Part shown: positions 3,698 to 33,928 of the stretch, one piece after another
Layout of the letters: every line of letters starts with the position of its first letter
Position numbering within the stretch: position 1 is the stretch's first letter
Source: a virus
Strand: one strand, 5' to 3'
Virus record (IMG/VR): IMGVR_UViG_3300035162_001736
Location: 1-38,024 of that record
DNA length: 38,024 nucleotides
Program-made: the position numbers and the translations under genes
The notes under the pieces: model-generated
What the model saw: the letters and a program-made list of their open reading frames with translations, nothing else
Told to the model about the DNA's origin: nothing
Database searches by the model: none

Positions 3698-5713
3698 CTA
3701 ATCCGCTATCACAATCTCTTCTTCTGTCTCTTCAACTGGGAAAAATGAAGTATCGCCTTGACCAGACAAACCTCTGGGCGGAATCTGAGCAAATCCTAAG
3801 ATAGTCGAGGCTTCAGCCCTGCCAATGTTCGCAGCCCTTGGAGCAGCTTTCGCTGTATATTCTTCAAGAAGTTTAACCACTGCAGCGATTTCTTCTGGAG
3901 ATTCAGACATCAACATTTTTGCCATTCGCTCTTGAACCTTTTCGGGTATTGTAGCTCTCTGCAATACTCTTACAGCCATGCTCATAAGACCGCTAACTGG
4001 GTTGAAGCTAGACTGAATAGCGTCTCCAGCCGCTTCTGCAGCGCCTGGATTTGACTCTAGTTGATCAACTGCAGCTCTTCTGGCTGCGGTTGGAGATCCG
4101 CCAAGAATCTTACCAGCTCTCTCAAATAGCTGCTTTTCTCTTAAAAGAGCGGCCTCTAACAGGTCATAGCCTGATTGATTGGTATTTGGGAAAAGAAGTT
4201 TTATTTTAGCTCGCATGTCTGGAGAGCCAATTATTCTTTTTGCAAAATTAGCTTCATTTGATGGAGTTGTGATTTTATTCAGAATGCTTCTTGTTGCGCC
4301 AATTGCAAAAACTTCTCGTTCAGCTTGGCTAAAGTCATTTAACAGTTTAGAGACTTGCTCTGGCGCAAAACTTGGCTTGCTAAAATCTGAAAGTCCTAGC
4401 TCTAAAGCCTCGACAACTTCAATGTCACCCTTATAAACATTTCGAGCATTACGGTAAGCTGACACGCCGTCCACTTCGGTAACTTCATCTAAGATATTTA
4501 TATACTGCTGGCGTAAGCCTTTTAATGCGTTAGCCTCTGCGGGAGCCATGCCAGTGCCATCGAAGCCTTTACGAATAACATCGTCTAACCCTCGCTTTAT
4601 GTAGTCAAGAGTCCTTACATCAGGAAGTTCGCCCTCTCCCTGCAGCATAAATCTATAGCCGTCTCCTCCTGCTAACATATCAGCATCTTGCTCATATCTT
4701 GCAATAGTTTTTGCTCTTTTATATGCTTCTTGAAATGCTGGATTGTTCTCTAATAGATTAAGTATGCGAGGATCGTCTACAGTCCCGAATGCATAAGCTT
4801 CATCGTATACATCGTCAGCGTTGCGCCTTAAATTGGTTATTAGAGTATCTTGTGTCGCATAAAAATTATCATTACTTACTGCGTCTTTAACCTGCTCTCC
4901 AACTCTAGCTCTAGATCCAGAGCGCATGTCTTCTAATGTGTCTTGAATTATTGCTGGCGAGTCGCCTCTTCCGGCTGTGTTAACGGCGTCTGTTAGGTTA
5001 GTAAGTGGTCGAGTTGTTGTTCCGATTGTGGCTGGAACACCTAAGTATGCGTCTGCCTGCATCGTATTAACGACATCTTGCATAGTGCCGCCCTTGCTTG
5101 AAACAGAATCAAAGATTCTTCGCAAAGCGCCCATGTCTATCATGCTATCACTAGCAATTAATCGTTCTTTAATTGCATTCCACGCAGCTCCGCCAGCCCT
5201 GGCCGTAAGAGGAATGCCCGCGCCAAGAACTGCTCCGGCAATAAGCCCGATTGCGCCGCCTTCAAATCTATCTCCTGGATTACCAGCTCCTGCTCCGCCG
5301 ACTAAGCCGGTTCCGGTTCCAACCATCACTCCTCTTCCAATGGTGTTTTGAGGGATAACTTTTGCTGCCTGTGTTGCTGTTGTTGTTCCTAGTTGCCTTA
5401 GTTTATTCAATGCTCCAAGACTTCTCGTTGCAGCCGCAGCAGTTCCTGCTGTGCTGGCCCCGCCAGTAAACGGGGCTGCTGCCAGTGACCCAATTAGCGG
5501 AAGGAATCCACCTCCAATTTCTCCAGATAGGGCAACGCCTGGATTTTCATCCGCGAACTGTGTATAGCTGTCATTAATCATGTTCAGCTCTTCTTCATAA
5601 GTCTCATCGCCGCGCATTGATCTTATTCTGGCTTCAAGCTCATCGCCCCAGCCCATGGCCAAGCCTTGACCGAGAACTGCGCGAGCCGTGTTACCCCAAA
5701 AATTGTCTGCCAT
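3698..5713 (-). CDS. Putative internal virion / ejection protein
   Basis: This 671-aa protein starts MADNFWGNTARAVLGQG. Residues of about 58-185 are rich in Gly and Ala with glycine-zipper-like stretches (GEIGGGFLPLIGSLAAA, GTGTGLVGGAGAG, GAIGLIAGAVLGAG) that could insert into a membrane. The remainder is helical and charged. Phage ejection proteins often pair glycine-zipper membrane segments with long helices and are placed late in the structural operon, as here. No catalytic motif (for example transglycosylase) is visible. The role in DNA delivery is inferred from composition and position. Confidence 0.6.
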   Translation of the reverse strand: MADNFWGNTARAVLGQGLAMGWGDELEARIRSMRGDETYEEELNMINDSYTQFADENPGVALSGEIGGGFLPLIGSLAAAPFTGGASTAGTAAAATRSLGALNKLRQLGTTTATQAAKVIPQNTIGRGVMVGTGTGLVGGAGAGNPGDRFEGGAIGLIAGAVLGAGIPLTARAGGAAWNAIKERLIASDSMIDMGALRRIFDSVSSKGGTMQDVVNTMQADAYLGVPATIGTTTRPLTNLTDAVNTAGRGDSPAIIQDTLEDMRSGSRARVGEQVKDAVSNDNFYATQDTLITNLRRNADDVYDEAYAFGTVDDPRILNLLENNPAFQEAYKRAKTIARYEQDADMLAGGDGYRFMLQGEGELPDVRTLDYIKRGLDDVIRKGFDGTGMAPAEANALKGLRQQYINILDEVTEVDGVSAYRNARNVYKGDIEVVEALELGLSDFSKPSFAPEQVSKLLNDFSQAEREVFAIGATRSILNKITTPSNEANFAKRIIGSPDMRAKIKLLFPNTNQSGYDLLEAALLREKQLFERAGKILGGSPTAARRAAVDQLESNPGAAEAAGDAIQSSFNPVSGLMSMAVRVLQRATIPEKVQERMAKMLMSESPEEIAAVVKLLEEYTAKAAPRAANIGRAEASTILGFAQIPPRGLSGQGDTSFFPVEETEEEIVIAD

Positions 5714-5725
5714 GACTTCTTCCTT

Positions 5726-8248
5726 TTATTTGGCCGCAGATCGCCGGCTATAAGATCCCGCTGAAATTGTTTGCAACTTGGTTTTGGTTTCGTTTTGCAA
5801 CTGTCTCATTGTGTCAAGAGCCTGCTGTATAATATCTCTACGAGCCTCAAGACTTTTAGAGCTAGTTCCTTGAAGATCTAGATTAGCTGCTCGCTCTCCA
5901 TCAGAGATGTTTCCTCCAAAAGTCGCCTTCAATGTCATTAACGCGCCTTTAGACAGCACATTCATCAGCTTCTCAGTATTCATATACTTTTCGCTGTCAG
6001 GGTCTGTTATTGATGCTACACCTTTCGCTAGCGTATCAGCGATGCTGTTTGTGTATGAGTTTTCGTTTAGCGTCAGAGCCTCTTCAAGCAAGTTTATAGC
6101 AGCTCCCTGCGAGAGTATGTCTGCATCAGTTTTAGCTTTAAGATCTATCTCTTTATTGGTCAGCTGATTGGCCTGCATGGTCAGCGTCTTTATCTCCAAG
6201 TCTTTTCTCTCTTCTTCTCTGTCATACCAATCTGTTATTTGGTTAGTGTACTCATCTGTTCCAACTTCAAATCCCATTTCAAGGGCTATTAGACCTGCTT
6301 CAGACTGAGGAGTTTTTGTTTTTAAATCAGCGTCATATGCTCTCTGCTCTTGGAGGCTCAGTAAATCATAGTCTCTTTGATCTTTTAAAGTTTGTGACTC
6401 TCTTTCCCAATCCAGAAACATTTCTTGAAGGCGCTCATTGCGCTGACGCTCTCCTGCCGCTAGGGTTTTGTCAGACTCTAATTGCTCTTGTAAAAGCCCC
6501 ATTCCGAACTGAGCAGACTGAAGTCTCAAGGCATCGCCTTGTGTTCCTGCCTCTCTTCTTTCAGAGGCAACGTCTGCCAGGACTGTGTTTACATTTCCCA
6601 AGCCTTCAAAGAAATTTCCGGTCTCTGTAGGCTTGCCTAGCGCCGCAGCGATCCTAAACCATTTTTCAGATTCAGATGGACCTTTACTCTGACTCGTAGC
6701 CATATCCTCAATTAAGGACTGGAAGTCACTTGCGCTTTGATTATAGCTATCCTGACTAGAAGCTATGCCTGCGTCATAAGACGTGCCTTGGTTATTTTTC
6801 AGCATAGTCAGCATTTCTTGCATGCTCTCAGACCGACTCGGCGCAGCCGCGGCTTGTATCATGACATCCATATCCAGAGGATCTCCGGTAAGAGTCACAT
6901 CGAGCTCTTCTTCTTCAACAAAATCGACAGGATTTTGAACAAACCGATGGCCTGGGTTACTCGCCAAATCTCCGGCAGCGTAACCTTTAATTGCGCCTCC
7001 TCTGGCCATAAGCTGAGGTCCAAACAAGTCAAAATTTTCAAAATCCAAACCCAAATCAAAATCTACATCGGAGCCAATTATGTTGCCGGTGTTTAGATTT
7101 GAGTCATCTGTAACTGTCCAAGTATCGTTATTAATAAGATCTGAGTTAAAGTTAGATCCGCCACCAGGAGTGTAAATGTCGGAATAATCATAATCAATTG
7201 GCACTCCATTCGCGTCTACTATTGTGCCGTCAGAATTTACTGTGTTTCCCGATACGGGCGTTGATGTTCCTGGAAACTGCAGAGGTCCATTAAACGTAGT
7301 TCCTGGAATCGTTATAGTTCCATTATCTGACAGAACAATATCGTCGATAGTAAATGTTACTGGCTCGCCATCGGCATTGTTAAACTCAAAATCACCTTCT
7401 GTGCCGCCACCAGTATTGTCATTGCCACCAGTATTGTCATTGCCACCAGTATTGTCATTGCCGCCAGTATTGTCATTGCCACCAGTATTGTCATTACCGC
7501 CAGTATTGTCATTACCGCCAGTATTGTCATTACCGCCAGTATTGTCATTACCGCCAGTATTGTCATTACCGCCAGTATTGTCATTACCGCCAGTATTGTC
7601 ATTACCGCCAGTATTATCGCCGCCGCCTATCGGAACCCCACCATAGCCATAAACATTTCCGGTATTAACTGGAGCACTCAAAACATTGCCGTAGTAATTG
7701 CCGCTCTGGTTCATCACATTTTGATTACCAGTGTTGTTTATTCCTCGCTGGGCGAATTCAGTCTCTGCATTTCTAAGGAAGGCATTGCGCTCAGCATCGC
7801 TGACTTGTCGATTTTCGTCTTCGTAGGCTCTTTGCCTTTCTTCAGGAGTAGGGCCATAGCCAATCGCCATTGGCCAAACGTCACCGAGCTTATTCTCATT
7901 CTCTCGGCCCAAATACTTTTGATACATTTCATTGACAGTATCGGGAGTCTCGCTAGCTGGCCTCTTTGACTGGCTGAATTGTTGCTGAGCATACATCGGC
8001 GTGTTCTGCAGGCGCTGATCATATTGAGCTGCGTAAGTGTCATACGCTGCTTTGTCGGCGTCATAATTCGCTAGCTGTGCGTTGTAAGCCTCAAGCTGAG
8101 CCGCTTCGGTTATAGCCTCTTCAGCAGCATTTTTCTTAGTCGCGTCATAAGCAAATGTCTCGCCAGGATTCCGAGCCCCAGCATAGCCCAGCTTAGAAGC
8201 CGAGCCGATACCGTATTGTTGCTTCAGTCTGTTAAGATTAAATCCCAT
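5726..8248 (-). CDS. Large virion protein with a GGNDNT repeat linker
   Basis: This 840-aa protein has a helical N-terminus rich in Tyr, Ala and Gln (residues 1-115). A low-complexity linker of eleven perfect GGNDNT hexapeptides plus one variant sits at about residues 211-285. A beta-rich Asp/Asn/Thr/Gly region follows (about 285-415), then a MARGGAIKGYAAGD motif near residue 415. The long C-terminal helical half carries Gln/Glu-rich coiled coils. It lies among the large internal-protein genes, so it is probably a virion or ejection component. The repeat linker looks flexible. No enzymatic domain is seen. Confidence 0.6.
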   Translation of the reverse strand: MGFNLNRLKQQYGIGSASKLGYAGARNPGETFAYDATKKNAAEEAITEAAQLEAYNAQLANYDADKAAYDTYAAQYDQRLQNTPMYAQQQFSQSKRPASETPDTVNEMYQKYLGRENENKLGDVWPMAIGYGPTPEERQRAYEDENRQVSDAERNAFLRNAETEFAQRGINNTGNQNVMNQSGNYYGNVLSAPVNTGNVYGYGGVPIGGGDNTGGNDNTGGNDNTGGNDNTGGNDNTGGNDNTGGNDNTGGNDNTGGNDNTGGNDNTGGNDNTGGNDNTGGGTEGDFEFNNADGEPVTFTIDDIVLSDNGTITIPGTTFNGPLQFPGTSTPVSGNTVNSDGTIVDANGVPIDYDYSDIYTPGGGSNFNSDLINNDTWTVTDDSNLNTGNIIGSDVDFDLGLDFENFDLFGPQLMARGGAIKGYAAGDLASNPGHRFVQNPVDFVEEEELDVTLTGDPLDMDVMIQAAAAPSRSESMQEMLTMLKNNQGTSYDAGIASSQDSYNQSASDFQSLIEDMATSQSKGPSESEKWFRIAAALGKPTETGNFFEGLGNVNTVLADVASERREAGTQGDALRLQSAQFGMGLLQEQLESDKTLAAGERQRNERLQEMFLDWERESQTLKDQRDYDLLSLQEQRAYDADLKTKTPQSEAGLIALEMGFEVGTDEYTNQITDWYDREEERKDLEIKTLTMQANQLTNKEIDLKAKTDADILSQGAAINLLEEALTLNENSYTNSIADTLAKGVASITDPDSEKYMNTEKLMNVLSKGALMTLKATFGGNISDGERAANLDLQGTSSKSLEARRDIIQQALDTMRQLQNETKTKLQTISAGSYSRRSAAK
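7406..7603 (-). repeat. Eleven 18-bp tandem repeats encoding GGNDNT
   Basis: Eleven uninterrupted 18-bp units, differing only at synonymous wobble bases (gccacc or gccgcc; attg or atta), encode Gly-Gly-Asn-Asp-Asn-Thr. A degenerate twelfth unit (GGGDNT) follows. The near identity points to recent slippage or recombination and predicts copy-number variation between relatives. Confidence 0.95.
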
Positions 8249-8260
8249 TTCAAGCTCCTG

Positions 8261-11200
8261 TTAGCCGGCTAGACCCCGGTATGTGGAAAATCCTGCGCCT
8301 AGTTGCGCCAGCGGAGAAGGACTATATGTGGACCCAGTTGTCGATCCAGACGTTGATACGCGATTAGGCGTAATAGGCGCCATACCGCGCACTTGAGTGC
8401 TAAGCCAATCCATCTGCTGCTGAGGATAACGCTGCTGATCCAGAAATTCTTTTTCAGCGGCTGATAATTGATTCTGCAGCTGCATTTGTTCTGCTTGTCC
8501 AGCCGCTTCAAGAGCACTTAAATCTCTATAGTTAGCTTGCTGACCGGCAATTGCCATATCTCCCATGCTCTGCAATGCGCCAATTTGTCGATTGTAATCT
8601 TGTGCCTTAGCCTGCTGTACTTGCGAAGCCGCGTTAAGCCCCAACTGTTGTTGGCTTAGACCTGCATTACTTCGGCTCTGCGCTAGATTGCCCAGCTGAG
8701 ACATTTGCTGACCTGATAGCTGGCCGGTTGTTGAGCCCAAGCCAGCAAGCTGAGAAGCCTGCTGCCCTGTTAGCTGACCCATGTTCTGGCCTATCTGAGC
8801 CTGACGACTGGCGTCTTGACCCATCAACTGTCCTGCTGTAGACGCAGCCTGCATCTGGCGCGCTGCATCTGCATTGGTCATCTGACCTGCTACTCCTGCG
8901 GCCTGAAATTGTCGTGCGGCATCTTGACCAGTTAACTGTCCTGCTGTGCTTGCTAGCTGCGCCTGGCGCGCTGCGTCAGCATTAGTCAAAGACCCTAACT
9001 GACTAGCAATTTGAGCTTGTCTTGCCGCGTCAGCGTTAGTAAGGGCTCCTAGCTGAGTACCAGCCTGAATCTGTCTGGCTGCATCCTGTCCTGTAAGTTG
9101 TCCCAACTGGCTAGCAATTTGAGCTTGTCTTGCTGCATCCGCATTCGTAAGAGCTCCTAGTTGAGTACCAGCTTGAATCTGTCTGGCCGCATCCTGTCCA
9201 GTAAGTTGTCCCAACTGACTAGCAACTTGTGCTTGTCGAGCAGCATCTGCATTTGTAAGAGCTCCTAGTTGAGTGCCAGCCTGCAGCTGTCTTGCTGCGT
9301 CCTGACTTGTGAACTGGCCCATCTGGCTAGCAACTTGAGCTTGTCTTGCTGCGTCAGCGTTAGTAAGAGCTCCTAGCTGAGTCCCAACCTGAAGTTGTCT
9401 TGCCGCGTCTTGTCCAGTAAGTTGTCCCATTTGACTAGCAACTTGTGCTTTTCGGGCAGCATCTGTATTTGCAAGAGCTCCTAGTTGCGTACCAACCTGA
9501 AGTTGCCTGGCTGCATCTTGTCCAGTAAGTTGCCCCATTTGGCTAGCAACTTGTGCTTTTCGAGCAGCATCTGTATTTGCAAGAGCTCCTAGTTGCGTAC
9601 CAACCTGAAGTTGCCTGGCTGCATCTTGTCCAGTAAGTTGCCCCATTTGGCTAGCAACTTGTGCCTGTCTTGCTGCATCTGCATTCGTAAGCTGACCCGC
9701 TTGAGAAGCAGCTTCCATTTGACGGCTAGCATCTTGATTTGTTAGCTGACCCATAGTTGATGCAAGCTGCGCCTGTCTTGCTGCGTCAGCATTTGTAAGC
9801 TGACCTGCTTGAGAAGCAGCTTGCATTTGTCTTGCTGCGTCCTGACTTGTGAGCTGGCCCATTTGGCTGGCAACTTGAGCCTGTCTTGCTGCGTCTTGAC
9901 TTGTTAGCTGGCCTGCCTGTGCTCCTAGTTGAGAGTATTGTCCTGCTCCCTGTAATGTGCGACCTAAATCAGCACCAGAAATGCTGCCTACTGTTCCCGC
10001 AAGGCTAGCTTGACGTGCCTTGTCAGCTGCTGAGGCTTGCATAGCCTGAGCATAACCCTGCTGCATCATTGGAGCCTGCTGCCTTAGAACAGACTCTTGC
10101 GTGTCTCTTAGAGCCCTAGATCCGAATTCGCCCATATTTCTACTGCCGAACTGACCTGCTCTTATAAAAGAATCTGAGACCCCAGGAAGTAGATTCTCAG
10201 TCAGATTCCGAGCTCCTTGCTGCGCGATTGCATCCATGACATTCGTTTGATACGGATTCATGTACTGATCTATATTAGACACAGAAGACTGAGATGCTTG
10301 CTGTAAATAAGGGTTAGCGGCATTCAAAGCCTTGTCTGCTAACGCCTGGGCGGTAGTGTTTTGAGATTGAGTCATGTAAGGGCTAGCCGCGCTCATCCCG
10401 CTGGCCCCAGCCGCTTGCTGAAGAAGAGGATTGGCTGAATCAAAAGCACTCGCTGACACGCCGGCCTGCAAATAAGGATTGGCTGCATTCATGCCGCTAG
10501 CCGATCCTGCCGCTTGAATATACGGGCTAGCCGCATTGACGCCGCTTGCAGAAGTTCCGGCTTGCAGATAAGGATTGGCCGCTCCCATACCGCTTGCACT
10601 AGCAGCTTCTTGAAGCAAAGGATTAGCAACGTCAAAAGCATTTGCTTCTGCCGCTCTTTGAAGCATAGGGTTAGCTGCTTCCATACCGCTTGCACTAGCA
10701 GCTTCTTGAAGCAAAGGATTAGCAACGTCAAAAGCATTTGCTTCTGCCGCTCTTTGAAGCATGGGATTAGCTGCTTCCATACCGCTTGCACTAGCAGCTT
10801 CTTGAAGCAAGGGATTGGCAACGTCAAAAGCATTTGCCTCTGCTGCTCTTTGAAGCATAGGGTTAGCAGCATTCAGGCTGCTAGCCGCGCCCGCCTGCTG
10901 AAGCATAGGATTTGCAGCATCAAAAGCACTTGCCGCAGCTGCCTGCTGAATCATAGGATTTGCTGCATTCAAGCTGCTTGCTGCGCCCGCCTGCTGAAGC
11001 ATGGGATTAGCAGCATCAAAAGCACTTGCCGCAGCTCCCTGCTGAAGCATAGGATTTGCTGCATTAAATCCGCTTGCTGCGGACGCCTGCTGAAGCATAG
11101 GATTTGCAGCATTCAAGCCGCTAGCTGCAGCTCCTTGCTGAAGCATAGGATTTGCAGCATTCATGCCGCTAGCTGCGGCCGCTTGCTGAAGCATAGGATT

Positions 11201-11854
11201 AGCAGCATTCATGCCGCTAGCTGCGTTTGCAGCGCCCATGTAACCGCTAGCGGCATCCATAGCATTAGCAGCTGAACCGGCTTGTAAATAAGGATTAACG
11301 GCATCCAATGAGCTTGCAGAAGCGCCAGATTGCAGATAAGGATTAGCTGCGTCAGATGCGCTCATTCCTGCCGCTGCAGTTAAGTAGGGAGACGCTGAGC
11401 CGACAATATTATTTGCATTTGTTTGAGCCTGAGTTAGCAAAGGCTGTGCAGAGCCTAAAATATCCATGTTGCCAGCGCTCGTAAATAAATCCTGTCCGGC
11501 ATTTAAGTTTTTACCAGCCAAAGAAGTTGCCGCTGGATTCAGGTATGAGCCTTGAGCAGTAGATAAGGTGGCAGAAGTTCCGTTAGCAGACTGGGCCTCC
11601 ATAGCGGCCTGAGCTTTTTCTAAATTTGTTTTGTAAGCTCCCTGAGCATTTGCAATTCCGGTATAAGCGTCTTGCTGATTCTGAGAAAGACCAGCAACAG
11701 TCGGCAGCGAATAGTCTTCATAAGGCTTGTTGGCTATGTTTGTGGCCCAATTTACCTGATTAAAGATAGCATCCTGCATCCACTTCGGCGTTTCCGTTGT
11801 GCTCGCGCTATAAGTAGTAGCGGTTTGTGGCGTTCCTTGAAATATGCTACCCAT
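8261..11854 (-). CDS. Giant dual-repeat virion protein, putative ejection or tape-measure-like
   Basis: This 1197-aa protein has four parts. The N-terminal domain (residues 1-167) includes ETPKWMQDAIFNQVNWATN and resembles a family of uncharacterised marine-phage structural proteins. Residues 168-487 are 20 tandem copies of a 16-residue unit (NAANPMLQQAAAASGM type). A non-repeat spacer (488-647) follows. Residues 648-1061 are 23 copies of an 18-residue unit (GQLTNADAARQAQVASQM type). The C-terminal domain contains QQRYPQQQMDWLS. It is Ala/Gln/Ser-rich with no Trp or Cys in the repeats. Eighteen residues equal five alpha-helical turns, so the second block could form a long helix with a straight stripe. 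The start and the upstream gene's stop overlap as TAATG. Function is inferred from position only. Confidence 0.65.
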   Translation of the reverse strand: MGSIFQGTPQTATTYSASTTETPKWMQDAIFNQVNWATNIANKPYEDYSLPTVAGLSQNQQDAYTGIANAQGAYKTNLEKAQAAMEAQSANGTSATLSTAQGSYLNPAATSLAGKNLNAGQDLFTSAGNMDILGSAQPLLTQAQTNANNIVGSASPYLTAAAGMSASDAANPYLQSGASASSLDAVNPYLQAGSAANAMDAASGYMGAANAASGMNAANPMLQQAAAASGMNAANPMLQQGAAASGLNAANPMLQQASAASGFNAANPMLQQGAAASAFDAANPMLQQAGAASSLNAANPMIQQAAAASAFDAANPMLQQAGAASSLNAANPMLQRAAEANAFDVANPLLQEAASASGMEAANPMLQRAAEANAFDVANPLLQEAASASGMEAANPMLQRAAEANAFDVANPLLQEAASASGMGAANPYLQAGTSASGVNAASPYIQAAGSASGMNAANPYLQAGVSASAFDSANPLLQQAAGASGMSAASPYMTQSQNTTAQALADKALNAANPYLQQASQSSVSNIDQYMNPYQTNVMDAIAQQGARNLTENLLPGVSDSFIRAGQFGSRNMGEFGSRALRDTQESVLRQQAPMMQQGYAQAMQASAADKARQASLAGTVGSISGADLGRTLQGAGQYSQLGAQAGQLTSQDAARQAQVASQMGQLTSQDAARQMQAASQAGQLTNADAARQAQLASTMGQLTNQDASRQMEAASQAGQLTNADAARQAQVASQMGQLTGQDAARQLQVGTQLGALANTDAARKAQVASQMGQLTGQDAARQLQVGTQLGALANTDAARKAQVASQMGQLTGQDAARQLQVGTQLGALTNADAARQAQVASQMGQFTSQDAARQLQAGTQLGALTNADAARQAQVASQLGQLTGQDAARQIQAGTQLGALTNADAARQAQIASQLGQLTGQDAARQIQAGTQLGALTNADAARQAQIASQLGSLTNADAARQAQLASTAGQLTGQDAARQFQAAGVAGQMTNADAARQMQAASTAGQLMGQDASRQAQIGQNMGQLTGQQASQLAGLGSTTGQLSGQQMSQLGNLAQSRSNAGLSQQQLGLNAASQVQQAKAQDYNRQIGALQSMGDMAIAGQQANYRDLSALEAAGQAEQMQLQNQLSAAEKEFLDQQRYPQQQMDWLSTQVRGMAPITPNRVSTSGSTTGSTYSPSPLAQLGAGFSTYRGLAG
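8672..9913 (-). repeat. 23 tandem 54-bp repeats (18-residue units)
   Basis: 1242 bp, exactly 23 x 54, encode units of the form G-[QA]-L-T-x-x-D-A-A-R-[QK]-x-Q-x-[AG]-[ST]-Q-x. Even and odd units often alternate (GQLTGQDAARQ versus GALxNxDAAR), giving a 108-bp higher-order repeat, nearly identical between about 9400 and 9660. The last three units are degenerate. Confidence 0.93.
10394..11353 (-). repeat. 20 tandem 48-bp repeats (16-residue units)
   Basis: 960 bp, exactly 20 x 48, encode units like [ND]AANPMLQQAAAASGM. Each carries an Asn-Pro helix breaker followed by a short Ala-rich helix. Units 11-16 (10586-10873) form three almost identical 96-bp copies, a recent higher-order duplication. 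A 21st unit is decayed. Confidence 0.93.
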
Positions 11855-13731
11855 TATGCAATTCCTTGTCTTAGATAATTTAGAGGCGACTTGGCGTTAG
11901 GGCTGAATTTGCCTTTAGCTAAGACTTTTCCTTTGTGCGATCTAATTCCTTCGCGCATACCATTCAACGCCTCTGCGCCAGCCTTGCTCGATCCGTCACC
12001 TAACATCGATACTGTCTCTGCATCTACCACATATTCGCCATCGCTGAGATAGGCCGGTATTTCATCAGATCTTCCCGTACCGCCGCCCCTGACGTAGCGA
12101 GAGGCTTTCTCAAGCGCGCCTCCTTGATTCATACGCATCGGACCTCCTCGATAGTAACCGCTAAAATCACTACTCGTACCCGTAGACTGCATGTTGTACT
12201 GGCCAGACGTTAAGTTATTAAAATTCTGCGCCATAAATTCAGTCAAAGACAGGTTGGCTCGATTAGCGTCTTGACGCACCGCATCCCAATCCCATGAAGT
12301 GAGAGGCCGATTAAAATACTCTTGCTGCTCTGGGGACATAGTGGAAACAGCATCGACGACATCAACAGGTGTATCAGGTTCCATCATTCCCATGGCTCCC
12401 AAGCCCAACATTCCAGCTGCCATTTTATTGTCACCAATCCAGTCCCTTGCGCTGTCAAACATTCCGGGAGTAGATGGCATCGGCCTGTTCTGCATATCGA
12501 GATACGGCTGCTGCAAATCTGCGCCAATATTTCCTGCAGCAAAATTAGCAGAAGGATCAAGACCGGCAGCAAAGGGATCGTTTGAGTTCAGGCTTATAAA
12601 CTCGTTTTGTTTTGCTGCCATTATATCGTCAAAAGTAGTTCCTTCAGGTACTTGCCCTGGCGCTAATGGCGCTCCGGCCTGTCCAGTTTGCTTGATACCA
12701 TCTACTACAGCTTCAGAAGGCTTTGGACCAGATAACAAAGACTTTCCTGCGCTAAAGAGACCTGCTGTAGCCCCTCCTTGCAACGACTCTCTTGGAGTGT
12801 AGCCCGCTGTCAGCATATTTCCCGTAGCGTCTACTCCAGACTGTATTGCGCCCTGGAAAGCGTTTGGCGCTCCTGTGCCAGAGCCTGTTCCTGCAAAGTT
12901 TTTGAGAAGCTGGCCACCTGCTCCCTGCAGTGCTCCTTGCTTAAAGCCATCTCCACTGACCACTCCTGCCGCGCCGCCAACTAAGCCGCTGCCCAGCGTT
13001 GCCGCCATCGGAGCTGACAAACCTAAATTCAAACCTTGATTTATTGCGTCTCCGGCTACGTTACCAATTCCTCCTGTAATGCCGCCCATGATAGCGCCGC
13101 GCTTCCAGTCGCCGCCTGTTGCAGCAGCCGTGCCTGCGCCGACGATTGAGCTACCCACTACTGCCGCAGCAGTTCCAGTAAGCCCCAGGCTAGTCCCTAT
13201 AGCAGTGCCGAGACCCGGAGCAAAAACCATCAGAGCAACAGGCAACACTGTTTTTAAAGTCTTCTTCAGGCTTTTATACTCTGCCAATCCAGTGTTTGGG
13301 TTTACCGTGCCTTGACCGCCCATTCTTCGCAATACTTCAGCTTCACGAGGATTAATGTGAGCCAGCATGCTATCGCCGCCCTGCCCTTGATTAGCTAAAC
13401 GCCTGCCGGCAACAGTTAAGCCGCCACGAGCATAGCCTTGAGCCATGCCTCGTTCTTGAAGACCATAAAGCGCCATTAAAATTGAGATGATAAAAACCGC
13501 ATCAAACTCTGCGGGAGCATCGCCCTCATCAATTAAGCCGTCAGCAATTGCAGCCTGTACCATTTCGGCGTACATAGCTGGATTCTCAAGAGCCGCTTCA
13601 AGCATCTCAATCGCTTCGTCTAAGTCCTCTGGGACCATAGCCGTGCGAGATAGGCGCTCCTCGATGATATCAATACCCTGGCCGAACTCCGGGCTCTGGC
13701 TGGCCAATTCTAATATTTGTTCCCTAATCAT
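11854..13731 (-). CDS. Large virion-associated protein with glycine-zipper core
   Basis: This 625-aa protein has an acidic helical N-terminus (residues 1-95) and a GYARGGLTVAGRR motif near residue 99. Hydrophobic Gly/Ala segments (about 163-260, for example LPVALMVFAPGLGTAIGTSLG split over several stretches) could be membrane-inserting. A linker rich in Pro/Gly follows. The C-terminal domain holds YYRGGPMRMNQGG, RYVRGGGTGRSDEIPAYLSDGEYVV and a basic tail; the SDEIPAYLSDGEYVV type segment recurs in marine phage structural proteins. It is probably an internal or ejection protein. Start is ATG; the gene overlaps the repeat-protein gene by one base. Confidence 0.6.
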   Translation of the reverse strand: MIREQILELASQSPEFGQGIDIIEERLSRTAMVPEDLDEAIEMLEAALENPAMYAEMVQAAIADGLIDEGDAPAEFDAVFIISILMALYGLQERGMAQGYARGGLTVAGRRLANQGQGGDSMLAHINPREAEVLRRMGGQGTVNPNTGLAEYKSLKKTLKTVLPVALMVFAPGLGTAIGTSLGLTGTAAAVVGSSIVGAGTAAATGGDWKRGAIMGGITGGIGNVAGDAINQGLNLGLSAPMAATLGSGLVGGAAGVVSGDGFKQGALQGAGGQLLKNFAGTGSGTGAPNAFQGAIQSGVDATGNMLTAGYTPRESLQGGATAGLFSAGKSLLSGPKPSEAVVDGIKQTGQAGAPLAPGQVPEGTTFDDIMAAKQNEFISLNSNDPFAAGLDPSANFAAGNIGADLQQPYLDMQNRPMPSTPGMFDSARDWIGDNKMAAGMLGLGAMGMMEPDTPVDVVDAVSTMSPEQQEYFNRPLTSWDWDAVRQDANRANLSLTEFMAQNFNNLTSGQYNMQSTGTSSDFSGYYRGGPMRMNQGGALEKASRYVRGGGTGRSDEIPAYLSDGEYVVDAETVSMLGDGSSKAGAEALNGMREGIRSHKGKVLAKGKFSPNAKSPLNYLRQGIA

Positions 13732-13733
13732 CG

Positions 13734-14168
13734 TTAGCTCCTACACCAGTCGTGTTCTTTGTATTCGTTTTCAAGAAAGCCGTAAAGATGCATGTCTTCA
13801 TCGTCATTGTACGCTTTTCTCATAATTCCTTCTTTCTGAAAGCCTATTTGTTCTACAAATTTCTGACAGGCTACGTTTGAACTGGCAATTAAAGCCGTGC
13901 TTCTGACTGCCTTTAGCTCATCAAACACCATTTGAAACAAGCCGTTGAACATCATAATGGTGCTCTTTGGAGTCAAAAAACAATCGGCAACAATATTTAC
14001 GTCAATATTTCTCTTGGTAAAATTAGTCAATAATATTACGCAAGCAAAATCGCCTTTTTCATTAACTGACGATAGAGCTCTAAAGACTTCTGGAGAGCTC
14101 TTGACGCCAAGGTGTTTGCTAGCCCACTTCTCTGCCTTTTCTTCATCTTGATAGCCGATATATCTCAT
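13734..14168 (-). CDS. GNAT-like acetyltransferase homologue
   Basis: I choose the ATG at 14168 (144 aa), because it overlaps the previous gene's stop as ATGA; a longer reading from a GTG at 14207 would overlap that gene by 43 bases. The C-terminal half has the GNAT end pattern: ASSNVACQKFVEQIGFQKEG, then MRKAY and DMHLYGFLENEY. The usual acetyl-CoA loop (Q/RxxGxG/A) is not evident before the helix FQMVFDEL, so activity is uncertain. Similar small GNAT-like proteins occur inside structural operons of marine phages. A role in modifying a virion or host protein is possible but not shown. Confidence 0.6.
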   Translation of the reverse strand: MRYIGYQDEEKAEKWASKHLGVKSSPEVFRALSSVNEKGDFACVILLTNFTKRNIDVNIVADCFLTPKSTIMMFNGLFQMVFDELKAVRSTALIASSNVACQKFVEQIGFQKEGIMRKAYNDDEDMHLYGFLENEYKEHDWCRS

Positions 14169-14404
14169 AGTGTTGTCTGAACAAATCTCTCTGCCCACTC
14201 TCTCCACTGGCTAATGTCATAAGAATAAGGATCGGGAAAGTCTTCTACTAAATTTGTAGCCCGGTTGTATTGTGTTGCCCAGTCTTGCCACTTTTCCGGG
14301 TCATTCAAAGGCTGATAAACACCAAACGCATCAAAATCTATAATCAGGCAGTCTGCCCAGTCTTGTAATTCTATTCCTACAGGTAGCGTTACGCTTAGGC
14401 TCAT
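14165..14404 (-). CDS. Small conserved-looking hypothetical protein
   Basis: This 79-aa acidic protein is rich in Trp and Asp (QDWADCLIIDFD, EKWQDWATQYN, QWREWAERF), with repeated W-x-x-W-A type motifs suggesting a small helical domain. It overlaps the gp10-like gene start region by four bases and the GNAT start by four, so all three are translationally coupled. Position right after the tail-hub gene suggests a small tail or assembly role. I do not recognise a characterised family. Confidence 0.6.
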   Translation of the reverse strand: MSLSVTLPVGIELQDWADCLIIDFDAFGVYQPLNDPEKWQDWATQYNRATNLVEDFPDPYSYDISQWREWAERFVQTTL

Positions 14405-18668: not shown

Positions 18669-18973
18669 TAGGCAGCATTCAGCGCGTCAATTTGCGCTTG
18701 CAGTCTAGCTATCTCGGCAACTTTTGGGTCAACCCAATCAGCTACTTCAGTCCACGTTGTGCCATCAAAAGTGTAACGGTTTCCCTGCCAGTCAGCCGGA
18801 GCTGTCACGCCAGTGTGCAGAGTCGCATTGCCAGAGTGCATATCGCCGATGTAGAAATCAGGGTCAGCGTCATCGCCTACCGTGATTCTGTCAGCACCCA
18901 TTGTGACGTTTTTCGCGTCATCAAAGATGTAAGGCGAACGCCCTGTGTCGTTAAAAGTTAATGTCTTACTCAT
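18668..18973 (-). CDS. Small virion-associated hypothetical protein
   Basis: This 101-aa protein has an N-terminal beta-rich half (DDAKNVTMGADRITVGDDAD) and a DWQGNRYTFDGTTWTEV segment. A C-terminal helix (EIARLQAQIDALNAA) could form a short coiled coil for trimerisation. Such C-terminal helices appear on small tail proteins and fiber chaperones. Its place directly downstream of the three propeller genes suggests it serves the fiber, possibly as a cap or assembly factor. Confidence 0.55.
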   Translation of the reverse strand: MSKTLTFNDTGRSPYIFDDAKNVTMGADRITVGDDADPDFYIGDMHSGNATLHTGVTAPADWQGNRYTFDGTTWTEVADWVDPKVAEIARLQAQIDALNAA

Positions 18974-20439
18974 TATGAATCTCCGTTCAAAAGTAGTGAT
19001 GTTGTCGATATTGCTAGTCCTGCGTTGACGCTGCTGCTCACAGTGGTTACGGTTCCATCGTCCTGCACATAGTATTTAGAGCCAGTGGTTAAGCTGCTTA
19101 ATCCTGTAGCCGTACCGCCCTGCACAACAACTGTACCCGTAGCCGAACTGGATATGGCTGCGTCTGCTATGCCTACGAAGTCGGCTGAGTTGGTTGAAGT
19201 TCCCGGCGGAGTGTATACAGTAGCTTGCCCAGAAATATTCCCTCTATTGTATGCAGTAACTACTTTGTTTTCAGTGGAACTGTACGCAGACCCTATATCA
19301 GGAGAAGGCCCACCAGAATTAAGAATAAGAGCTGACCCAAAAGTTATGCTGCTGCCAGAAACAACGCCCGAAATAATACGTGCGTAAAAAGAATTAGATG
19401 CACCCCCTTGGTATGATACAACAATATTACCACCAGAAGAGTCATACGTTGTTGAGACATAGCCACTTATAGCCGCGGTTTCAAAAACAACCGCCGTACC
19501 GAAACTAAGGCTTGTACCGCTTACCGTGCCTACTACGGCTGTTCCGTAGTCGCTATTAGAGTTATCTCTATAGGCAACGACTACCCTTTCGTTAGCAGAA
19601 TCATAAGCTATGGAGTAAAAAGTACGGCTTGAAGCACTAGTATAAGTAGCTTCAGTACCAAAACTAATACTTGTACCAGACACAGTTCCGACTCTTGCTT
19701 TTCCTCCTGAAGTACCCTGCCCTTTGTATGAAACAATCGTTTTTTCATTAGCAGAATCATAAGTGGAGGTTACGTAGGAAAGGGCAGAAGAATAAAAAGT
19801 AACAGCACTACCAAAAGAAATGCTTGTTCCGCTAACTGTACCGACTATCGCTTTGCCAAGATCACCTGCGTCAGCATCTGCAAAGAAAACTACTACTTTC
19901 CCAGAAGCCGTATCGAACACTGGAGCGGGGTTAAAAGTTGCGCTTGAAGTAAATGTAACAACAGACCCAAATGAAATTGAAGTGCCTGAAACAGTTCCAA
20001 TTTTTGCGCTGCCTGCGTAATTACTAGCGTCGTTACTGTAAATAACTACTACTTTCCCCGCAACAGAGTCAAAAGTTGCGCCGTTTTGGTTTGTTGCACC
20101 GCTGTTATAGACGACAGGAGTGCCAAAACTAATCGATCCTCCTGAAATAGTTCCAACTGACGCAGTCCCATAAGAGCTATTTCCAGAATCTCTGTAGGTT
20201 ACAATTATTTTGTTGTTTGTAGAATCATAAGTTACCGAGTTTTCATTGGGAAGTGAGTATGAAGCATCAAAAGTACCTGCCACGCCTACTGCTTGAGGTA
20301 TACTAGTTTCAGCAACAGCACTAACCGTCCCAGCACTGTTAAGAATGACAGGCGCTTTGCTGGTAATGTTTGCCGTGGCTACCGCTTCAATGGTCTTACC
20401 AGAAGCACCCGCAGGAAGTAAGTCAGAAAGATTGCTCAC
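18973..20439 (-). CDS. Propeller-type tail fiber/receptor-binding paralogue 3
   Basis: This 488-aa protein starts with GTG overlapping the previous stop (GTGA). The N-terminal anchor SNLSDLLPAGASGK and VILNSAGTV is shared with the two upstream paralogues. Residues of about 60-430 hold seven repeats of about 52 residues with the pattern YDS-x3-K-x-VVxY, then VGTVSGTSISFG, like blades of a seven-bladed beta-propeller. The C-terminal segment SKYYVQDDGTVTTV is also shared. Blades here are the most regular of the three. Propellers with variable loops suit glycan or surface binding, so a receptor-binding role is an inference. Confidence 0.65.
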   Translation of the reverse strand: MSNLSDLLPAGASGKTIEAVATANITSKAPVILNSAGTVSAVAETSIPQAVGVAGTFDASYSLPNENSVTYDSTNNKIIVTYRDSGNSSYGTASVGTISGGSISFGTPVVYNSGATNQNGATFDSVAGKVVVIYSNDASNYAGSAKIGTVSGTSISFGSVVTFTSSATFNPAPVFDTASGKVVVFFADADAGDLGKAIVGTVSGTSISFGSAVTFYSSALSYVTSTYDSANEKTIVSYKGQGTSGGKARVGTVSGTSISFGTEATYTSASSRTFYSIAYDSANERVVVAYRDNSNSDYGTAVVGTVSGTSLSFGTAVVFETAAISGYVSTTYDSSGGNIVVSYQGGASNSFYARIISGVVSGSSITFGSALILNSGGPSPDIGSAYSSTENKVVTAYNRGNISGQATVYTPPGTSTNSADFVGIADAAISSSATGTVVVQGGTATGLSSLTTGSKYYVQDDGTVTTVSSSVNAGLAISTTSLLLNGDS

Positions 20440-21974
20440 GATTGGTACTCCAGATTAATTGATGTCGCCGACATGGCGCGGCCTATCTTGACCGCAGAAC
20501 CTGTAGAAACGGTACTTATAGTTCCGTCTGCCTGCGCGTAGTAGTCGCTGCCCGGAGTCAATGAAGTCAGCCCCGTAGCCGCTATACCACCCTTGATTGT
20601 TACGTTGCCGCTGGCCGCGCTTGATATAGCTGCATCGGAAATGCCAATGAAGTTTGTTGAGGTGAGGTTGGTTGAGGTATATCCTTGCTGACTAGCTACC
20701 GAACTGCAGCCATCATAGTTTTTCTCTCTCCAAGCCGTGACAAAACTTCCTGCATCGTTAGGGTTCATAGCCGCCACTAAATAATTCGTGCTATTTACTC
20801 CTTCTGTCGTAATTTGAACAGGAGTTCCCGCTGTAATTGTTGTACCGCTAACACTTAAAGCAGCAGCAAAAGGACGATCACTTGTAGCATCATTTCTGTA
20901 AACGATTTGAAAAGCTCTTCCTACTCCAGATGGAGCCATAGCCCAGAAATCAGTAGAAGCTGTAGAGTTAAACTGTACTTTAGTTCCAAAAGTAAAAACG
21001 GTTCCAGATAAGGTTGCAGCACAAGCTGCTCCATAGTTACTGCTGCCAGCGTCTCTAAAAGCAATTATTAAATTGTCAGCATTAACCGAATCAAACACGC
21101 AAGCTGAGTATGGAGTAGTCTCAAAAGCTGCTCCTGTGGCGTTGAAAGTTTGAGCAGTGCCTCCGGTAATTGTAGTCCCTGAGATAGTTCCACACACCGC
21201 TATTCCGGCATAAGGACTTGCATAATTGTTAGCGACTACAGCAAATTTACCTGTAGTGCTTGGGTCAAAAGCAAGTCCTATACGCCAATCGTTTACCGCT
21301 GTACCATAAAGCTCTACCTCAGTTTGCAAGGTAACTGTAGTTCCACTATAGGTTCCCAATGTACCAAACAGCTTATTGCTATCCGCAGCTTTTTGCCAAG
21401 CTAATACAAAAGTGCTAGAGGTAAAATCAAACTCTAATGCTCCATACGAATTAGCCGTTGAAAAATTAACTCCTGAACCAAAACTTAAAGTCGTTCCGCT
21501 GAGAGTACCCACTTTTATAAAAGACCCAGAACTACCTGCAAAATCATTGTACGCTATTGCAAATACCCCTGTAGCAGCGGGATCAGCCGCAATACTAGGA
21601 TGAAGAACTGTACTAGAATTAAATACCGTTTTAGTGCCATAAGTTAATGTAGAACCAGAAATAGACCCCACTATGTAAGAAGCGTAACTACTAACTTTAG
21701 CGTCTGCAAAAACCATAACGAATTTGTCTGATGAAACATCAAAAGCTATATCTATGTAATTGGCTGTGCTGTAGGGCGAACTAACTGGTGCTGCAAACCA
21801 AACTGTATCTGACCCTTCAGGAATAGACTCACTAACGCTAGTTTCAGATATAGGTGTAACCGTCCCCGCCGAGTTAAGAATCACAGGCTTACCCGCCGCG
21901 CTTATTGCGCCATCAGCAACAAAGCTAACTTGTTTGCCCGCGCCTGCAGGGAATAGATCGGAAAGATTTGTCAT
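20436..21974 (-). CDS. Propeller-type tail fiber/receptor-binding paralogue 2
   Basis: This 512-aa protein has the shared N-terminal anchor (TNLSDLFPAGAGKQ, FVADGAIS, KPVILNSAGTV). About seven repeat units of 50-55 residues follow (for example AFDVSSDKFVMVFAD, then VGSISGSTLTYG). The C-terminal segment SDYYAQADGTISTV is shared. Blade sequences have diverged from both neighbours while the ends are kept, as expected if the ends attach to a common partner and the middle binds variable targets. It overlaps both neighbouring genes by four bases. Confidence 0.65.
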   Translation of the reverse strand: MTNLSDLFPAGAGKQVSFVADGAISAAGKPVILNSAGTVTPISETSVSESIPEGSDTVWFAAPVSSPYSTANYIDIAFDVSSDKFVMVFADAKVSSYASYIVGSISGSTLTYGTKTVFNSSTVLHPSIAADPAATGVFAIAYNDFAGSSGSFIKVGTLSGTTLSFGSGVNFSTANSYGALEFDFTSSTFVLAWQKAADSNKLFGTLGTYSGTTVTLQTEVELYGTAVNDWRIGLAFDPSTTGKFAVVANNYASPYAGIAVCGTISGTTITGGTAQTFNATGAAFETTPYSACVFDSVNADNLIIAFRDAGSSNYGAACAATLSGTVFTFGTKVQFNSTASTDFWAMAPSGVGRAFQIVYRNDATSDRPFAAALSVSGTTITAGTPVQITTEGVNSTNYLVAAMNPNDAGSFVTAWREKNYDGCSSVASQQGYTSTNLTSTNFIGISDAAISSAASGNVTIKGGIAATGLTSLTPGSDYYAQADGTISTVSTGSAVKIGRAMSATSINLEYQS

Positions 21975-23473
21975 CCGGTGTAGTCCTTAATGTTGATTTG
22001 GGTGGCTGTTATGGCTTGACCAATAAGCTGCGCGGGGGAGGCACTGGCTGTGGTTATCGTGCCATCTTCTTGCACGTAGTAGTCAGAGCCAATTGTAAGG
22101 CTTGTCTGAGCTTCGTTCCTGCTACCCCATGTGTTTATCGTTCCGGTAGCAGTATCCAGAATAGCTCCTGAAGCTATGCCCAAGAGGTTGGTTGCGGTGA
22201 GGTTTGCATAATCCCCCGCCAGTGTCATAACATTAGCTACGGCTAAATCTGAACCCGTAGAAGCATAAGCAATAATATTTCTTTCTGCTGTGCTGTCGTA
22301 ATAAACAACAGGGTGACCAGAAAAAGCCCCAGAAAATGCTACCGTCGCGTCCCAAGCTATGGTTGATGCTCCAACCGCTCCAACATTGTAATAAAGTTTA
22401 TAATCACTATTTTTTTTATGTAACGTAACTACTCTATCCTTGGCGATATTATAAGAAGTTGAGAGAGCATCACCGTAAACGGTAGATGCGCTGGATATTA
22501 GAACGGTGGGTGTTGTCCATGTCAGTTGTCCCGGGTAACCCACGCTAGACCCGTTTGTTCCCAAAGTATAATAAACATAATTATCAGAACTATTCTGATA
22601 AGTCGCTACATATCTAGCAATGCTAGAGTCGTAAGCCAAGGTAACATTACTTTCAACAGTGGGCGAGAATGATAGAGAAACAGTAGCCATCGACCAAGCA
22701 CTAGCACTCAATGTAAATGTTTTACCAATTCCAAACTTATTAGCGCCCGAAGTGTATCTACTTGCTATCATAAACCCATCTGTACCGGTAATATTAACGA
22801 GCTGCGCTTGCCCGTTGAGAGTACTGTTTCCAGTATTGTCCAAAAGATCGGCAGTTATTGTGGTTCCCGAAACAGTCAACCTATAAACAAAAGCATAGTT
22901 ATAGCGATTTACCACACATACTGTGGCATTTCTTACGGAGCTATAAGCTAACGCTTGGGCGGTCATATAAGTAGCAGTCGAAAAAAGCGTAATTTCAGTC
23001 CCAAAAACGATTGTTTTTGTAGCCGCCGTTATTGTTCCGCATCGCGCATACTGATAACCACTGGCGTCAAGGTATGTCGCTATAATCTTCCCACCGCCAA
23101 TAGAACAAACAGAGGCAGGATTACTGGAATTAGAAGAGGCTTTAACTTGTACCGGAGTTCCCCATACCGTAGTACTGCCCGAAATAGCACCGATAACTAC
23201 ATGCCAGTAGTTGCTAACACCACCGTTACGATAAATTAAAACTTGAGTGTTGGTAGCTGCATCAAAACAGCCCCCAAGCATCTGTACTGAGTTGCCTCCA
23301 TTAAAGTCGGAATCTGCTCCTAGATTAGTAGATACAGTCTCGACGGCAACCTGCGCAGCCTTACCCGCCGCCGTCAGGATCACAGGCTTACCCGAGGTTA
23401 TCGCCCCGTCAGCAACAAAGTCGGTATTATTCTGACCGCCTCCTGCGGGGATCAGCTCGGAAAGATTGCTCAT
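21971..23473 (-). CDS. Propeller-type tail fiber/receptor-binding paralogue 1
   Basis: This 500-aa protein has the same plan as its two neighbours: anchor SNLSELIPAGGGQN and FVADGAITSGKPVILTAAG, then about seven diverged repeats (CFDAATNTQVLIYRN, VIGAISGSTTVWG; YYDSTAERNIIAYAS), and the C-terminal SDYYVQEDGTITTA. The units are longer and less regular than in the third paralogue. The first gene of the trio, it starts one base within the stop of the upstream fiber gene. A role in host recognition is inferred from the repeat plan and fiber context. Confidence 0.65.
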   Translation of the reverse strand: MSNLSELIPAGGGQNNTDFVADGAITSGKPVILTAAGKAAQVAVETVSTNLGADSDFNGGNSVQMLGGCFDAATNTQVLIYRNGGVSNYWHVVIGAISGSTTVWGTPVQVKASSNSSNPASVCSIGGGKIIATYLDASGYQYARCGTITAATKTIVFGTEITLFSTATYMTAQALAYSSVRNATVCVVNRYNYAFVYRLTVSGTTITADLLDNTGNSTLNGQAQLVNITGTDGFMIASRYTSGANKFGIGKTFTLSASAWSMATVSLSFSPTVESNVTLAYDSSIARYVATYQNSSDNYVYYTLGTNGSSVGYPGQLTWTTPTVLISSASTVYGDALSTSYNIAKDRVVTLHKKNSDYKLYYNVGAVGASTIAWDATVAFSGAFSGHPVVYYDSTAERNIIAYASTGSDLAVANVMTLAGDYANLTATNLLGIASGAILDTATGTINTWGSRNEAQTSLTIGSDYYVQEDGTITTASASPAQLIGQAITATQINIKDYTG

Positions 23474-33120: not shown

Positions 33121-33540
33121 TCAGATGAATGCCTTGACTTTAAGCGGGTCGCCTTTAACGCTTCCCATAATGTCAAGATCATTAAAAATTACAAACATTG
33201 CTGACTCGCCATGGGAAGCGTCAGGGATAGGAACTTCCCATCTATCTCCTCCATATTTAGCAACTCTCACAAAATCTCCCTCTTTGCACCAACTCCCTTC
33301 TGGCCAGCTGTCCATCGTGTTACGATTTTTGAAAGCTAGCGGCCCAACGGAAACAACTTTGCCGACCTGGGTATTCCACTTCTCTGTGTCAGAAGTGTCA
33401 GTGGTCAGTAAAATTCCCCCAGATGTTTTGTTTTTAGCGGTGCGAATCTGGATCAGAACACGGCTACCGAAAGGCTGGATTCCACCATCTACTGTTGGAA
33501 AAGCCTCCGCAAGTGCGTCCTCATAAGTCTTGTTTTCCAT
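33121..33540 (-). CDS. Viral GroES-like co-chaperonin
   Basis: This 139-aa protein from the ATG at 33540 (preferred because GAGGAT sits seven bases before it; an ATG four codons earlier has no site) matches the Cpn10 core. PFGSRVLIQIR opens the barrel, KNKTSGGILLT is the mobile loop with the hydrophobic I-L-L triplet that binds GroEL, and NTQVGKVVSVGPLAF is the following strand pair. GSWCKEGDFVRVAKYGG stands for the GD-V-F region of GroES, and the last strand is AMFVIFNDLDIMG. T4 gp31 and other phage homologues replace host GroES for capsid folding. The location between scaffold and portal fits. Confidence 0.88.
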   Translation of the reverse strand: MENKTYEDALAEAFPTVDGGIQPFGSRVLIQIRTAKNKTSGGILLTTDTSDTEKWNTQVGKVVSVGPLAFKNRNTMDSWPEGSWCKEGDFVRVAKYGGDRWEVPIPDASHGESAMFVIFNDLDIMGSVKGDPLKVKAFI

Positions 33541-33718
33541 TTTTATCCTCATCTATTAAGTTTAAGAGCACGTCTATGGACGCTTCATATCCAGCGACCA
33601 TTCCTACACGATACCCGTACTCGAAAGTGTCGCGTTTTTGAGGTCTCTTCAAGGCTTCAAGCGCAAATTCTGCTTGATTGGCTTTGAGGAGATTCAGAAG
33701 TTTTGAGTCTATATTCAT
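33521..33718 (-). CDS. Small hypothetical protein
   Basis: This 65-aa protein is a mixed helix pair (LLNLLKANQAEFALEALK; VGMVAGYEASIDVLLNLID) with a charged end (DEDKNGKQDL). It overlaps the start of the co-chaperonin gene by 20 bases and could be translated in coupling with it. No family is recognised. Confidence 0.5.
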   Translation of the reverse strand: MNIDSKLLNLLKANQAEFALEALKRPQKRDTFEYGYRVGMVAGYEASIDVLLNLIDEDKNGKQDL

Positions 33719-33730
33719 TAAGCATTATTC

Positions 33731-33928
33731 TTAGGCTGGCGTATTGCCAGAGCCTTGGTTGACTTTAAATCCAGCGGCCATACGCTTGTGCTGAGATACT
33801 TGATCTGAATTCATATTTACTTGGCCACCTTTGGCGTAGCCTTTAGTTTTCATCTTGCCACCTTTTGAGTAGCCCTTTGTTTTCATTGCGCCACCCTTAG
33901 AGTAGCCTTTAGTCTTCATGTTGTTCAT
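33731..33928 (-). CDS. KGG tandem-repeat micro-protein
   Basis: This 65-aa protein from the ATG at 33928 has a GAGGAAGACAAAA ribosome site; a longer reading upstream would only add residues from an overlapping frame. Three near-perfect 11-residue units at its start read MKTKGYSKGGA, MKTKGYSKGGK and MKTKGYAKGGQ. A basic tail follows (SQHKRMAAGFKVNQGS). Similar short KGG-rich proteins recur in marine phage contigs without known function. It sits in the head module. A role in binding nucleic acid or in virion assembly is a guess. Confidence 0.7.
   Translation of the reverse strand: MNNMKTKGYSKGGAMKTKGYSKGGKMKTKGYAKGGQVNMNSDQVSQHKRMAAGFKVNQGSGNTPA
33821..33919 (-). repeat. Three 33-bp tandem repeats encoding MKTKGY(S/A)KGG
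   Basis: Three adjacent 33-bp units with mostly synonymous changes encode the 11-residue repeat of the KGG micro-protein. Selection on the peptide rather than on the DNA is suggested by the wobble differences between units. Confidence 0.9.

Follow-up and report, generated by a model that had tools for sequence, protein, structure and literature searches.

By what means phages with short tails cross cell envelopes of differing thickness is an open question, and ejection proteins show little conservation and are difficult to image. The gene P0001, which lies in a 38,024-base IMG/VR virus record (the window, i.e., the whole stretch of DNA that was analysed), raises the question of whether repeats within one protein might be involved in such a bridge (Table 1). 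In the original prediction an uninterrupted block of 54-bp repeats in this gene was read, if fully helical, as one straight, continuous helix that might form a conduit wall, a length gauge or an ejected tube.

Table 1. Position and organization of the gene P0001, its parts and the neighbouring genes in the window.
Feature	Position	Strand	Size and remarks
P0001 gene, ejection-type protein with two repeat arms	8261..11854	(-)	1197-aa ORF
N core, half of presumed base	11603..11806	(-)	residues about 17-84
Whole N arm, N core to central core	10265..11602	(-)	446 aa, approximate boundaries
N-arm array	10349..11356	(-)	21 x 16-aa units, residues 167-502
Central core, presumed hairpin tip	9986..10264	(-)	about 93 aa, residues about 531-623
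Whole C arm, central core to C core	8531..9988	(-)	487 aa, approximate boundaries
C-arm array	8672..9913	(-)	23 x 18-aa units, residues 648-1061
C core, other half of presumed base	8351..8530	(-)	residues about 1109-1168
P0004, upstream operon neighbour	11854..13731	(-)	625 aa, with hydrophobic segment; C-terminal motif resembling that of tape measures
P0002, downstream neighbour	5726..8248	(-)	840 aa, DNTGGN linker repeats
P0003, downstream neighbour	3698..5713	(-)	671 aa, phrog_5880

The block itself was confirmed, as its 23 × 54 bp encode 414 amino acids, i.e., 23 × 18 residues, with zero indels. Within this C array the glycine at unit position 1 is invariant, Asp7, Ala8 and Arg10 are nearly so, and the final two 18-aa units are degenerate. 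The identity at a lag of 18 residues amounts to 0.596 in the best 396-residue stretch, compared to at most 0.182 in 1000 shuffles. At a lag of 36 residues the identity is higher than at a lag of 18 (0.78 vs. 0.59), showing that the C array is partly an A/B alternation of two unit types forming 36-aa dimers. Neighbouring copies of the same type differ mostly by synonymous exchanges, indicating a coding constraint. On the other side of the central core a second array was found, which was absent from the original prediction and consists of 21 units of 16 amino acids of the NAANPMLQQAAAASGM type. Each of these 16-aa N units contains Asn-Pro, the 18-aa C units start with TxxD and end with Gly, and the composition of the arrays is rich in Ala, Gln and Gly. 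A conserved stretch beginning YMNPYQTNVMDAI lies between them. In the window protein and in the relative L151 the two arrays of the same protein alternate between A and B unit types, and seen from the core this alternation covers approximately the same units in both.

The presence of two arrays in one protein leads to the question of how they are related in size. Viral contigs and genomes were scanned for relatives, and 126 distinct ones were obtained in which the N, central and C cores can all be recognised. The N arm was defined as the distance from the N core to the central core and the C arm as that from the central core to the C core, the boundaries being set by profile anchors and therefore approximate. 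The central core is nearly constant in length, with 92–93 residues across all 126 relatives, the N arm ranges from 15 to 446 and the C arm from 12 to 487 residues, and the window protein is the longest found. The lengths of N arm and C arm correlate with r = 0.986 over the 126 distinct proteins. Independent contrasts on a quick, midpoint-rooted tree built from the cores alone (104 non-zero contrasts) gave a slope of 1.095 and r = 0.989, and of the 79 contrasts in which the C arm changed by 9 residues or more, 76 showed an N-arm change of the same sign by at least 6 residues.

As read from these sequences, the coupling is one for one in units. A single unit pair (16/18 residues) separates L168 from L115, L020 from L018 and L172 from L050, and L114 and L116 differ by two unit pairs (+32/+36). 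The cores of L002 and L007 are only 0.026 substitutions per site apart, yet their arms differ by 162 and 180 residues, i.e., by ten units on each side. If k is defined from the C arm (C = 109 + 18k), the relatives with 16-aa N units follow N = 105 + 16k within 0–5 residues, and this ladder is met at k = 0, 1, 2, 3, 4, 6, 7, 8, 11, 14 and 21, the last value being that of the window protein. Relatives with 18-aa N units follow N = 105 + 18k within 0–2 residues. In L107 the N units have a length of 14 amino acids and the 18-aa C units a sequence unlike that of the window, and the arms of L124 differ from those of its tree neighbour by 75 (N) and 79 (C) residues because a larger module was duplicated in both arms. 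The coupling thus holds across several different unit sequences. Exceptions are L074, L016 and L145, the latter two having N-arm inserts rich in Gly, Asn and Pro, and L078, which by inspection, as for these inserts, has a deletion in the C core. The source contigs are metagenomic and the repeat copy number may be miscounted in single cases, but the near-exact ladder makes a general error in copy number unlikely. Matched arrays of this kind are a clear case of enforced coevolution of two non-homologous tandem repeats in one gene.

Two further ideas connected with the coupling were examined. No DNA similarity between N and C array was detectable when both orientations were compared, so the arrays are not DNA relatives duplicating jointly and common repeat recombination does not explain the coupling. 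A co-lengthening of the neighbouring genes was rejected for the upstream neighbour, the length of which does not track the arms (rho −0.07), and is weak for the downstream neighbour (rho 0.33).

Next to their number, the placement of the duplications along both arrays was compared. The unit-to-unit DNA similarity pattern of the N array was set against that of the C array, both read outward from the core. The patterns agree at register zero in 11 of 11 proteins (r = 0.42–0.87, untrimmed). Untrimmed cross-protein control pairings are likewise high, and because of this and of end effects the end-trimmed comparison alone is relied on. With two end units trimmed, the N/C pairs of the same protein reached r = 0.21–0.83 in 7 proteins, compared to −0.75 to 0.33 when the arrays were set in parallel order and −0.56 to 0.44 when arrays of different proteins were paired; the mirror signal is weak in L114 and L151. 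A first test on the window alone gave no separation between antiparallel (0.60) and parallel (0.52) order. Units 6–8 from the core have the highest lag-2 DNA identity in both arrays of the window (N: 1.00/.96/.96; C: 1.00/.98/.89). Sub-block duplications sit at mirror positions relative to the core, which provides contact information without a structure.

Regarding the fold of the arms, the arithmetic of the original prediction is sound: 18 residues correspond to five turns, and 414 residues at 0.15 nm give 62 nm. The whole C arm of 487 residues would measure 73 nm if fully helical. Structure prediction, for which one database-sequence row was left out of the alignment, yielded predicted helices at residues 685–831 and 850–1032 of the 18-aa array with pLDDT values mostly of 65–81, rather than disorder or beta structure. 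The N array of the window protein was modelled by AlphaFold as coil with a pLDDT of about 35 (mean pLDDT of the protein 55.9, pTM 0.32). The mid-length relative L020 was modelled mostly as long helices (pLDDT 60, pTM 0.32). Neither of the two monomer models, both of low global confidence with a pTM of 0.32, contains a trustworthy packing of the arms. When the family profile was run against the PDB sequences, no relative of solved structure was found, and in a Foldseek search with the L020 model the PDB matches were non-significant (Rad50 and a chemoreceptor hairpin, with an E value of 4.9 at best) and the viral matches mostly unnamed proteins of uncultured phages.

Moreover, the C-arm lengths themselves carry a helical signal. 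At 100 degrees per residue, the C-arm lengths share a helical phase with R = 0.92, compared to R = 0.11 for the N-arm lengths, the C-arm lengths not being independent because many are linked by 18-residue steps. The distinct C-arm lengths fit 12 + 18a + 7b in 28 of 29 cases, and an even number of units is as permissible as an odd one. As 18 = 7 + 11 is an accepted period of coiled coils, an 18-residue period is less unusual than had been claimed. Hydrophobic periods of 3.0 and 3.6 residues both occur in the C arm and compete; in the window that of 3.0 is the strongest and that of 3.6 weaker, a point on which the original prediction is not supported. Of the lone helical rod originally proposed, the helix was retained and the solitary rod given up, the 18-aa array being one of two coupled arms. 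In our reading the C arm would form a continuous helix, next to which the N arm would run, broken by prolines.

For the function of P0001 its relatives are informative. Pfam and PHROG scans of P0001 gave zero matches. The greater part of the sequence of short relatives is matched by phrog_4287, 'DNA ejection protein' (E 2e-7 to 5e-26), whereas the window protein itself does not; no descriptions of arrays were found for the phrog_4287 family. For a distant relative, gp27 of Sinorhizobium phage phiM5, the record notes its detection in the phage particle proteome. Its gene precedes those of three putative internal virion proteins, and it is annotated as putative tailspike. In Caulobacter phage GB2A the gene of the relative gp064 is found two positions upstream of one whose product bears a C-terminal lytic domain of the internal-virion (ejection) type. 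The distant relatives L126, L195 and L196 carry a C-terminal endosialidase-type chaperone domain, yet are located among internal virion genes; in the window protein this domain gave no match in the Pfam and PHROG scans. The window phage encodes an SU10-type adaptor, a portal and a head-closure-type structural protein, which we liken to P22 gp10, and no major tail protein was matched among the window genes tested, suggesting a short-tailed phage. A role as tail tape-measure protein was rejected on the same grounds: tape measures are helical, repeat-rich and variable in length like P0001, but the window phage has no long tail. The match to an ejection family, the distant homologue recorded in virions and the short tail together make a trans-envelope conduit or rod probable, and P0001 is probably a component of a conduit that is ejected or part of the virion. 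A conduit or length role for the array, as first suggested, is plausible.

Comparisons by hhalign showed no profile similarity to T7 gp15 (E 0.68), which belongs to phrog_1339, to P22 gp7 (E 0.64) and gp20 (E 0.4) or to the P22 tail needle gp26 (E 0.59), and a profile comparison with T7 gp14 found nothing. P0001 is therefore not placed in those families. P22, with its ejection proteins gp7 and gp20 and the helical trimeric needle gp26, is a short-tailed phage too, and P0001 may act like these P22 and T7 proteins even though it is not grouped with them. T7 crosses the periplasm with a tunnel of about 20 nm that consists of gp15 and part of gp16 (PMC8954989), and in phage DEV gp72 and gp73 build a tube (PMC10925440). 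Like T7 gp15 and DEV gp72, P0001 would be a helical protein of an ejection operon, and for those of T7 and DEV a position across the whole periplasm is assumed (PMC8954989, PMC10925440). A description of coupled arrays in ejection proteins was not found in the open-access literature. A close parallel are the long antiparallel helical hairpins in the cytoplasmic part of bacterial chemoreceptors, the classes of which vary in length by symmetric seven-residue indels around a conserved tip (PMC5907407). Both systems share a matched length change in two arms about a conserved tip. However, chemoreceptors change by heptads and P0001 by steps of 18 residues in the C arm and of 14–18 residues in the N arm, with occasional steps of 7, and in this phage protein, for which the hairpin is deduced, the arms are tandem arrays of differing unit sequence. 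The logic of a hairpin with symmetric indels is hence already known, and new here are full tandem arrays, 18-aa steps and proline-broken partner units.

Judged by length coupling and mirror placement, the N and C arrays very probably form a paired hairpin. The central 93-aa core would be its tip, the N and C cores would jointly be its base and the two arrays the sides of the shaft, with N unit k packing against C unit k as counted from the core. The C side would be a near-continuous α-helix, in which the permitted steps of 18 and sometimes 7 residues preserve the helical phase, and the N side would add one proline-broken unit of 14–18 residues per step. Each added unit pair would extend the shaft by about 2.7 nm, and a unit gained on one side only would bring the shaft out of register, by which selection would hold the arrays matched. 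Several copies would probably join to build a trans-envelope conduit or rod, the length of which follows the unit number. We infer this packing, the oligomer, the ejection into the periplasm and length as a selected trait from the data above, and on balance we slightly favour the reading as a whole, i.e., an antiparallel helical hairpin with matched arrays assembled as a trans-envelope conduit or rod. Several observations count against it. The TxxD...G pattern and the Gly at unit starts could cap separate short helices, and a 73-nm shaft far exceeds the T7 gp15 tunnel of about 20 nm (PMC8954989). The low global confidence of the AlphaFold models with the N array drawn as coil, the PDB search that found no relative, the hydrophobic period of 3.0, the exceptions to the coupling and the chaperone domain of distant relatives, which would suit a needle or fibre equally, also weigh against it.

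The first of these is the basis of a different model, in which short capped helices stack as a solenoid, a unit pair adds a layer of about 1 nm and the window arms measure about 27 nm. The cap-like TxxD start and Gly end of the 18-aa units, the Asn-Pro of the 16-aa units, the hydrophobic period of 3.0 and the alternation of A and B units fit such a stack, and 27 nm would, from general knowledge, suit the periplasm better. However, that odd and even unit numbers are permitted alike sits uneasily with helices running up and down and joined by 3-residue turns, and weakens the short-helix stack, as do the 7-residue steps, the constant helical phase of the C arm and the continuous helices drawn by AlphaFold, so that we consider the solenoid improbable. 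Somewhat less improbable, but still unlikely, is a matched hairpin serving as a trimeric rod or needle outside the tail, with the arm length setting its reach. Such a rod stays a rival because distant relatives bear a chaperone domain of the kind used by trimeric fibres; the annotation of phiM5 gp27 reads putative tailspike, and the needles of P22 and SU10 are trimeric coiled coils (PMC3741392, PMC9509320). Against it stand the match of short relatives to a 'DNA ejection protein' family, the internal-virion-type genes that surround the gene in phiM5 and GB2A, the missing profile similarity to P22 gp26 and the relatives of the window protein, which are without the chaperone domain.

A pairing of the arms would be dispensable if the arrays do not touch and are flexible or helical low-complexity segments whose lengths obey a common constraint from outside, for instance the size of the capsid or the overall length of the protein. 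The Ala/Gln/Gly-rich composition and the low AlphaFold confidence for the N array would agree with this, but the exact ladder, the mirror duplications and the helical phase require a register beyond length, and the neighbouring genes do not co-vary, making it very improbable. We give hardly any credence to an artefact of assembly or sampling, i.e., wrong metagenomic copy numbers or a correlation that stems from few lineages. Short-read assembly, as is generally known, can collapse near-identical 108-bp repeats, and window copies reach 98–100% DNA identity. However, the correlation persists in the 104 non-zero tree-corrected contrasts, and the units are of different length in the two arms and in different lineages, a pattern that misassembly would not reproduce.

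For the hairpin assembled as a trans-envelope conduit, the length of the conduit might be set by the unit number, although we rate this somewhat below even. Still more tentative is a two-strand ruler, in which unrelated arrays of equal number extend a trans-envelope DNA conduit in 2.7-nm steps, presumably according to the thickness of the envelope. If this were true, the conduit would measure a few nm in those relatives that have the shortest arms and about 70 nm in the window phage. The family represents a natural length series, in which the C arm has 0 to about 26 units and follows an inherent rule, making the relation of conduit length to unit number directly testable.

Several further features were observed in the window. 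In the next operon gene, P0002, an 18-bp tandem repeat (7410–7615, 11.4 copies, 97% matches) encodes an Asp-Asn-Thr-Gly-Gly-Asn linker. Just upstream of the ejection-type operon a GNAT-like acetyltransferase gene is found (13734–14207), and in Ochrobactrum phage OH an annotated acetyltransferase lies immediately upstream of the P0001 relative. The head-closure-type protein P0005 (14401–16587) contains an insert at residues of about 494–595, which also matches tail-fibre PHROGs and ends with YYYCTIHSGMGG, resembling the copper-site motif of cupredoxins. Three consecutive paralogues of about 500 amino acids (18973–23473; 36% and 31% identity in the aligned parts) probably represent a multiplied fibre or adhesin gene. 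Finally, a GroES-like co-chaperonin (33121–33552; PF00166, E 5e-10) is encoded between the portal and scaffold-like genes, and a 33-bp tandem repeat of 3 copies (33824–33923) is located close to the portal gene.
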